Assembly: GCA_022821275.1 (NCBI GenBank)
Contig: JAJEDY010000059.1
Location: 62,001-126,000 of the forward strand
Direction of reading: 5' to 3'
Origin: Candidatus Latescibacterota bacterium
GTDB taxonomy: Bacteria; Latescibacterota; UBA2968
DNA length: 64,000 bases
This document shows, in pieces, positions 27,861 to 30,857 of this stretch; position 1 is the stretch's first letter, and each line of letters opens with the position of its first letter. The position numbers and the translations under genes are program-made. The notes below the pieces were generated by a model. The model was not told the origin of the DNA. It searched no databases and saw only the letters and a program-made list of their open reading frames with translations.

Positions 27861-30857
27861 TCATGCCGTTGGGGTGGTATCCACGCCGCGATCATCGCGT
27901 TCTAAGCCGAGTTCATCCCAAAATCGAGAGGGCGCCATATTTCTGCCCGGACGATGCCGCACACAGGAAAGCGTGAGGCGATCCATAGCGCGGGTGATCC
28001 CCACGTACAACAACCTGCGTTGTTCGGCTAAATCTGCGCTGTTCAGAGCGCGTGCATTGGGCAAAATGCGATCTTCGAGGCCGCAAATATAGACCTCCCG
28101 AAACTCAAGCCCCTTTGCCGCGTGCAACGTCAGCAAATGCACGGCATCGCGGTCTGGGGTATCCAATTCGACTTTGTAGAGATCGGCAAAATCGAGCAAA
28201 TTGCGAATACCCTCCTGAAGGGACGGCGCAGCAGCCCCGTGGCGTTCGCACAGATCTCGAAATCTTTGAATTTGATCCGGGGCGTGCAACGCGAGCACCT
28301 CTGGACGGGGATCTTCGCCGAGCAACATCCGCGTCTGCCCTCGCAGCCGGTCGGCATCCAGTCGAGGAAACTGCTGCACGAGATTGCGAATACACAAATT
28401 GGCTGGCCCCAAAAGACGCTGCGCCCCCAGGTTGAAATGTACGTGTTCTTCGCGGGAAAATGCTGTATCCCTTGCGCCATCGCGCGCGTGAAAAAGCAAG
28501 CCCAGAGCCACTTGATCCAAAAGGCGTTCATGCGTCATGCGCCGGTAGCGAGAGGCGCGTTCTTTCTTCATAGCTTCAAACACGCGGTACAAAGCCAGTG
28601 CGCGCGCGCGTACCGGTGGATCGTTTGGATCTGACGCAATATCATACCGCTCGCAAAGAGGATGCAGATCGCGTGTAGAAGTCGCGCCATAGCTTCGCGC
28701 CATAGGCAATATATCAACCGTCGGATTGGGCATGCGGGACCTGCCATTGCGACGGGCCTCGCGGTGCAAAACCTGAAAATCAAAGGCATAGCCATTGTGC
28801 GCGACCAGAATGTCAATACCGGCAAAGGCCTGAAACGCGAGATAAATTTCCTGAAATGTAGGCGCCGTGCCTTCGTCCTCTCGCAGGCGCACGGGCGAAT
28901 AAAATGTATCGACAACGCGCCCATCTCGCACGCGCACAGCACCCAGGCCCGTAATTTGTGCCTGCTCGGGATCGTCACCCGCGGTTTCCAGCGCAAATGC
29001 CGTGTATTCCGGCATATACGCCGGCAAATCGGCACAGCGGATCGCCTGGCATAGTTTGAGAGCAGCGAGCATCGCACCACATGCCAGGCCTCCCAGGTGC
29101 AAAAAGTGTTCGGGCGTTTTCGGTGGATCTTTGTCAAATGACAAGACCAGAGTATCGGATAAAATATCCAATCGGCTGCCGGGCACAGCCTCTCGAATGA
29201 TAAGCCCCGGCCGCGCCAGTGCATCCCTTATCAGAGTTGTGAGCAGGTGGCGCAGCACCTCGTCCCGACACGCCACATACAAGGTGCCGCCCCTGCGCCA
29301 AAGTGGCAACACGCGATTCAGGGCGGTGTCGAGATCCGAAAGTTCGAGCGGATCTACAATATCATCGAGATGATTTTTGAGAGAGGGCAACTCCGATGTG
29401 TTCAATTGATCCAGAATATCATCCACCAGATGGGGCAAAGATGCGACCGCGCCTCTTTGCACGGCATTGTGTACCACACCTGCCAGCCCCAGTGCGCGTT
29501 CCACATCCATGCCCTCTTCTTCCGAAACAGTTCGCGGATACAGAAAAGCAGCCTGTTTGAAACTCCCAATATTTTTTTGTTTCTGAAATCCCCGCACCGC
29601 CGGATATAACTTTGGATTCACAGCTTCGAGTTCGCGCCGCAAAAACAACTCGAGACTCGCATCATTCGCGCCATCGAGTGCATAGCGCAACACCGACAGA
29701 GCGCGGCGGATCACGGGCTGGTCGAACAAACCCCTGCGATGAGCCATCAGGCAGGGTACATTGGCGCGCATAAAAATGCGCTCGAGTTCGCTGCCTATTG
29801 CATGTTGGGGATAAAGCACCGCAATATCCCGGTGAACCAGATCGGGCGTTTCCCGGATGCGGTCCCAGACATCGCCCGCAATAAACTGGCCCTCTTCCTC
29901 AAACGTATCAAACGCCATCCCCCGCACGCGGCGCCCCGATCTCTGGGTGCTAATGCTGCGTTCAAACAACACGTCATTATTGGCGATAAACACGCGCGCC
30001 AGCCGCAAAATTTCTGCGGATGATCGGTAATTTTCCTCCAAAAAAATGGGGGGATGACCTTTGAGAAAGTCATCTCGAAATTGTTCGATATGTTCTGGCC
30101 TGGCATAGCGCCAGCCGTAAATGGATTGCTCGTCATCTGCAACCACAAAAACGCTGCGGTGAGCCGCGCCCAATAAATAAACGAGGGCGTATTGAACCGG
30201 ATCGGTATCTTGAAACTCATCGACGAGGATGTGTTGAAACTGTGCGCGGTAATCCGCCAAAATCTGGCGATGCGAATGAAGCAAGTCATGCGCGAGAAAG
30301 ATGAGATCGTCAAAATCGATCAATCGATTTTTTTTTAGCTCGGCTTCGTACTGATCGAGCAATGCCGCATCCCCCTTTTTCATCGGAACATGCGGTTTGT
30401 ATCGCCGCTGCCACTTCAGGCGATTCACATTTTGCATCACATTGTTCAAATTGCTTTCATTGGGATTCAGGCGTGGAAATGCGCGATAGATCAGCGTGCG
30501 CTGGAGATCTTCATCGGCAATGCCAAAATGCGGCGGCAACCCAACCGTTTCGCGATGCTCGCGCAAAATCGAGATACAAAACCTGTGAAATGTACCTGCC
30601 GTGACGGCCTCCGCAGAATCTTTGCTCAATGTGCGCGATAGGCGGATTTGCAGTTCTGCCGCAGCCTTATTTGTAAATGTAAGCGCCAGGATATTTCCCG
30701 GATGGACGCCGCGACGCGAGACCAGATACGCAATGCGTTCGGTCAGTACCCGCGTTTTTCCCGTACCCGGTCCCGCCAGCACGAGAACGGGACCTATCGG
30801 CGCGGTGACAGCTTCGCGTTGACGTGCGTTTAATGTGATGGGATCAGGGTCTGGCAT
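27861..30857 (-). CDS. UvrD/Rep-type superfamily 1 helicase with embedded, degenerate DnaQ-like exonuclease domain
   Basis: A 998-residue protein. The SF1A helicase motifs are complete: Walker A LAGPGTGKTR (28-37), LVDEFQDTDP (211-220), VVADDEQSIYGWRYA, EENYRSSAEIL, and near the C-terminus HLLTLHAAKGLEFREVYI and LLYVGITRAMDRLTLS. Between the two halves, about residues 617-765, lies a DEDD-exonuclease-like domain. Its ExoII motif VAHNGYAFDF keeps D693, but ExoI reads FALETAG (Ala replaces the first Asp) and the ExoIII His and Asp are replaced by V749 and L754. The domain therefore looks catalytically dead. Likely a DNA repair translocase; the exonuclease remnant may bind DNA. Confidence 0.88.
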   Translation of the reverse strand: MPDPDPITLNARQREAVTAPIGPVLVLAGPGTGKTRVLTERIAYLVSRRGVHPGNILALTFTNKAAAELQIRLSRTLSKDSAEAVTAGTFHRFCISILREHRETVGLPPHFGIADEDLQRTLIYRAFPRLNPNESNLNNVMQNVNRLKWQRRYKPHVPMKKGDAALLDQYEAELKKNRLIDFDDLIFLAHDLLHSHRQILADYRAQFQHILVDEFQDTDPVQYALVYLLGAAHRSVFVVADDEQSIYGWRYARPEHIEQFRDDFLKGHPPIFLEENYRSSAEILRLARVFIANNDVLFERSISTQRSGRRVRGMAFDTFEEEGQFIAGDVWDRIRETPDLVHRDIAVLYPQHAIGSELERIFMRANVPCLMAHRRGLFDQPVIRRALSVLRYALDGANDASLELFLRRELEAVNPKLYPAVRGFQKQKNIGSFKQAAFLYPRTVSEEEGMDVERALGLAGVVHNAVQRGAVASLPHLVDDILDQLNTSELPSLKNHLDDIVDPLELSDLDTALNRVLPLWRRGGTLYVACRDEVLRHLLTTLIRDALARPGLIIREAVPGSRLDILSDTLVLSFDKDPPKTPEHFLHLGGLACGAMLAALKLCQAIRCADLPAYMPEYTAFALETAGDDPEQAQITGLGAVRVRDGRVVDTFYSPVRLREDEGTAPTFQEIYLAFQAFAGIDILVAHNGYAFDFQVLHREARRNGRSRMPNPTVDILPMARSYGATSTRDLHPLCERYDIASDPNDPPVRARALALYRVFEAMKKERASRYRRMTHERLLDQVALGLLFHARDGARDTAFSREEHVHFNLGAQRLLGPANLCIRNLVQQFPRLDADRLRGQTRMLLGEDPRPEVLALHAPDQIQRFRDLCERHGAAAPSLQEGIRNLLDFADLYKVELDTPDRDAVHLLTLHAAKGLEFREVYICGLEDRILPNARALNSADLAEQRRLLYVGITRAMDRLTLSCVRHRPGRNMAPSRFWDELGLERDDRGVDTTPTA

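Follow-up and report, generated by a model that had tools for sequence, protein, structure and literature searches.

A gene in the window, by which we mean the whole stretch of 64,000 nucleotides analysed here, encodes a UvrD-type helicase that carries, within its 2B region, a DnaQ/DEDDh-type exonuclease domain with a dead catalytic site (Table 1). Judging from sequence comparisons and structure models, the protein is probably a former helicase-exonuclease that would now unwind DNA without cutting it, its pseudo-exonuclease being kept in 2B as a structural part or a contact.

Table 1. Positions in the window of the gene, its domains and the residues of the former exonuclease site.
Feature	Residues	Positions	Strand	Basis or remark
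Complete gene, a UvrD-type helicase containing a pseudo-DEDDh insert	998 aa	27861..30857	-	
Helicase core 1A/1B and first part of 2A	9-380	29718..30833	-	boundary at 380 approximate
Enlarged 2B region, first part	381-614	29016..29717	-	AlphaFold2 model, PcrA alignment
Pseudo-exonuclease domain, DnaQ/DEDDh fold	~615-765	28563..29015	-	Pfam, profiles, Foldseek
2B region, helical second part	766-898	28164..28562	-	AlphaFold2 model
2A, second part; motifs LLTLHAAKGLEF and LLYVGITRA	899-980	27918..28163	-	Pfam, PcrA alignment
In place of first catalytic Asp (ExoI), present in 23/23 other fusions	A622	28992..28994	-	
ExoI Glu, kept in all fusions	E624	28986..28988	-	
Cap-segment remains after beta-3, 15 residues shorter in the genus	657-665	28863..28889	-	
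Conserved His of the AHNGY motif, unchanged in every active and dead copy	H687	28797..28799	-	
ExoII Asp, kept in the window; Ala in genome G008	D693	28779..28781	-	
In place of ExoIII catalytic His	P747	28617..28619	-	
In place of ExoIII catalytic Asp	R752	28602..28604	-	

Searching the 998-residue ORF against Pfam identified UvrD-helicase at residues 9-264 (1.9e-76) and UvrD_C ending at residue 966, and inspection of the core motifs found AGPGTGKT, VDEFQDTD, QSIYGWR and LEENYRSS intact. Both profiles, together with the Walker A, DEFQDT, QSIYGWR and GLEF/TRA motifs, assign the protein to the UvrD/PcrA-type SF1A helicases, bearing out the original prediction of a UvrD helicase with intact motifs. 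Its scores miss the NCBIfam equivalog cut-offs for canonical PcrA (379 bits vs 911) and UvrD (348 vs 1144), and an ordinary PcrA (L092) is encoded separately in the window's genome. The fusion is 37% identical to this PcrA over 402 residues, with residues 8-414 and 901-992 of the fusion aligning to PcrA residues 3-413 and 540-640; its 2B region holds ~360 residues more than that of PcrA, ~150 of which make up the exonuclease fold. The AlphaFold2 model of the whole protein (pLDDT 74.7, the models being built from 10 sequences) showed structural matches to UvrD, Rep and PcrA. UvrD-type helicases move 3'-5', and from its family the window protein is predicted to be an active helicase of 3'-to-5' polarity. 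An alpha/beta segment in front of the pseudo-exonuclease (residues ~516-614/620, window 28998-29312) had no Pfam match; it is common to the fusions and poorly conserved. The 3'-terminal 35 bases of the gene (window 27861-27895) are shared with the beginning of an LpxH-like ORF.

The inserted domain combines an RNase H-like fold with DnaQ profile matches. Pfam RNase_T matched residues 623-742 with 1.6e-9, exceeding its cut-off, and was likewise found in 10/10 fusion members tested, while comparing a profile of the domain with the PDB retrieved the PolC exonuclease (1.7e-30), Pol III epsilon and Staphylococcus aureus DinG (SaDinG). In the full AlphaFold2 model, residues 617-774 follow the DnaQ order, beta-beta-beta-alpha-beta and then helices. 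A Foldseek search with the model of the isolated domain, which is of moderate confidence (pLDDT 66.5; TM 0.5-0.6 to its matches; ExoII segment poorly modelled), returned only DEDDh exonucleases as top matches (Pol III epsilon best at 8.7e-7; PolC, SaDinG). Sequence, profiles and models thus support the predicted placement of a broken DnaQ-type domain between the helicase halves.

Mapping the catalytic positions on an active-site relative (L033) and confirming A622, E624, H687, D693, P747 and R752 on the DNA showed that the window protein lacks the active DEDDh set (D, E, D, H, D), whereas this set is complete in all 23 fusions outside the genus (20 from Calditrichota and three sister-genus proteins). 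The residues named in the original prediction, an Ala for the first Asp, a lost ExoIII His/Asp pair and a remaining ExoII D693, were all correct; it had missed the invariance of E624 and the deletion of ~15 residues from the cap segment, which in active relatives contains an H-x-I motif. Also invariant in the active copies yet lost in the genus are T626 (all but one), E637, H662 and D732. From its motif, H687 is probably the equivalent of the phosphate-contacting H90 of SaDinG. In SaDinG the cap helix, positioned after beta-3, holds the 3'-terminal base, and changing D10, E12, D95, H149 or D154 to Ala nearly abolishes nuclease activity (PMC12345164).

Two of the four metal ligands are kept, and the genus conserves the acidic residues D629 and D715, as might be expected if the domain still cut DNA, either through E624, D693 and further acids or with its metals arranged in an unusual way. 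D715, however, occurs in every active copy and D629 in the majority, and they are therefore not replacements; searching the alignment for acids that could complete the site revealed none shared by the whole genus and missing from the active copies. The domain has lost the catalytic His and Asp along with the cap segment, the copy in G008 lacks D693 too, and single Ala changes suffice to nearly silence SaDinG (PMC12345164). We consider continued cutting highly improbable.

Searches of 64 whole Latescibacterota genomes detected the full-length fusion in 13, comprising 10 of the window's genus and three of sister genera, whose proteins are 70% (G013), 62% (G019) and 45% (G011) identical to the window protein; G010, represented by a contig-end fragment only, was left out of the analysis. 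The nine other genomes of the genus carry the fusion with open frames at 84-96% identity. Of 40 Calditrichota genomes, 22 gave a match, which spanned the whole model in 20, and a wider contig scan with two family-specific peptide patterns had a Calditrichota locus among the matches listed. A further match, in Agromyces (L042), looked like a chance match. Homology extends over the helicase, the enlarged 2B region and the exonuclease, and the window protein belongs to this UvrD-DEDDh fusion family, which on sequence grounds is a standing family of its own in at least two phyla. A tree of the helicase core separates the fusions, with full support, from the resident PcrA proteins. Since the helicase parts of the fusions form one clan apart from resident PcrA, a single fusion event, inherited or transferred, is favoured over separate fusions in the two phyla. 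Collections of plasmid, phage and viral contigs yielded no full-length fusion that would point to a mobile or phage origin. Several Latescibacterota retain the order fusion-LpxH-glycerol kinase, which agrees with vertical descent; in G008 (L039) the fusion lies apart from LpxH and glycerol kinase, and this is the copy that has lost D693 as well.

Aligning the homologues showed that the site is dead in 10/10 fusions of the genus and that active-site versions exist in the sister genera and in Calditrichota. An open, dead version common to 10 assemblies rules out an assembly or frameshift artefact. The genus is nested among active-site fusions, its stem having 100% support in the tree, indicating that the loss is derived and genus-wide; it probably occurred once, on the genus stem. 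Along this stem the rate of change in the exonuclease was 3.6-4.5 times that in the helicase parts (branch lengths: exonuclease 0.557, helicase core 0.153, 2B 0.123), whereas on the branch of an active sister (L013) the order was reversed (exonuclease 0.054 vs 0.161). Counts of changes on stem and sister branch were 34 vs 4 for the exonuclease and 26 vs 17 for the core (Fisher p = 0.005), counting and branch lengths serving here as an approximation to a codon-model test. Within the genus, dN/dS of the exonuclease was 0.094 in a nine-species core and 0.117 against G008, that of the other protein parts being similar at 0.05-0.10 (0.05-0.08 beside the exonuclease value of 0.094); these values come from pairwise counting, and their low level may in part stem from antisense or codon constraints. 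From the fast stem and the low dN/dS within the genus we conclude that constraint was relaxed at the loss of the site but not abolished, and by these sequence measures the domain is still constrained.

The acceleration on the genus stem also fits a domain that has become a neutral relic, devoid of function and persisting since its clean removal from 2B would break the helicase. The exonuclease has the lowest share of invariant sites in the genus (66% vs 77-87% in the other parts), and the loss of D693 in G008 is what continued decay would give and counts against a kept role. A dN/dS of 0.09-0.12 is nevertheless not near 1, all 10 species retain an open frame with no stop, frameshift or further length change in the domain, and the ExoII segment (residues 686-700) is nearly invariant, at 93% of its sites compared with 45% in the former ExoIII segment. 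Taken together, these observations make a neutral relic unlikely.

The explanation that we favour, loss of cutting with retention of the domain in 2B, begins with a separate family of UvrD/PcrA-type SF1A helicases, of predicted 3'-to-5' polarity, that have a DEDDh 3'-5' exonuclease inside 2B. DEDDh domains trim 3' ends using two metals, and in the active-site members a single chain would probably both unwind DNA and shorten the 3' tail it leaves behind. On the genus stem the site then lost three of its five catalytic residues, together with most of the segment that caps the 3' nucleotide, and the window protein would most likely still unwind DNA and no longer cut it. The remnant would persist because it is built into 2B, either lending structure or contacting nucleic acid or a different part of the protein. 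This role is the weakest step of the explanation; the earlier suggestion that the remnant is kept for DNA or protein contact fits the residual purifying selection.

Inactive nuclease-like parts of RecC serve Chi recognition, and by analogy the domain could have turned into a sensor or regulator, for instance one that binds single-stranded DNA or a 3' tail to control 2B. Its location in 2B, the conservation of H687 and of the ExoII segment and a more basic character in the genus (net charge 0 to +4 vs mostly negative in active copies) would suit such a role. The charge shift is, however, partly a mere loss of acids, DNA binding by the domain is putative, and the cap segment for the 3' nucleotide is lost; we regard a sensor as quite improbable.

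Helicases with dead exonuclease domains are already described in another family. In pExoDinG, e.g. of Caulobacter vibrioides, a DnaQ-superfamily domain has two acidic residues left and has lost the others, and a binding or structural role was suggested for this pseudo-exonuclease (PMC11981726). As a helicase with a dead DnaQ-type domain, pExoDinG is the closest precedent for the window protein. It is, however, an SF2 DinG/XPD helicase with an N-terminal, DEDDy-like domain, whereas the window protein is of the SF1A UvrD type, carries a DEDDh-derived domain inside 2B and, unlike pExoDinG, has close active-site relatives. The UvrD-type helicase and the internal position of the domain place it outside pExoDinG, which it would nevertheless resemble in its way of working. 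The original prediction had called the arrangement unusual; this should be put less strongly, given that the fusion family occupies two phyla and that dead helicase exonucleases are known as pExoDinG (PMC11981726).

The active fusions resemble ExoDinG, a known exonuclease-helicase fusion (PMC12345164, PMC4636137), in joining a helicase and a DEDDh 3'-5' exonuclease in one chain, for which it offers a model, and differ from it in that ExoDinG/SaDinG is an SF2, 5'-3' helicase with an N-terminal exonuclease (PMC12345164). The window's genome itself encodes, outside the window, a 955-aa ExoDinG-like protein (L095, G000:C66:17000-23000), the exonuclease site of which is apparently intact. With UvrD, PcrA and Rep the fusion has in common the helicase motifs and the 1A/1B/2A layout; they lack its ~360 additional 2B residues with the exonuclease fold, and the fusion forms a separate clan. 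RecB and AddA likewise unite a UvrD-type 3'-5' helicase and a nuclease in the same chain, but their nuclease is a C-terminal PD-(D/E)XK domain and not a DnaQ fold within 2B.

In the open-access literature searched we found no description of a UvrD-DnaQ/DEDDh fusion architecture, and the present analysis provides an example, a UvrD-type helicase whose 2B region contains a DnaQ nuclease. Our boldest interpretation, which we consider rather doubtful, is that the fusion is an undescribed single-chain 3'-strand processor of Calditrichota and Latescibacterota, which would couple a 3'-5' helicase to 3'-tail trimming by the logic of RecB with a DnaQ nuclease, and that in one genus the nuclease would be switched off, leaving 3' tails intact with the dead domain binding the tail. 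The finding alone leaves known DNA repair pathways unchanged. It does provide a matched set of close relatives, some with the nuclease site intact and some without it, for testing directly what the loss of a built-in exonuclease does to one helicase. The window's genome also encodes another nuclease-helicase fusion, a 1089-aa ORF outside the window (L094, G000:C46:50000-56500) in which, as assigned by eye, a PHP/Cys-rich, endonuclease Q-like N-terminal half is joined to a UvrD-type helicase.
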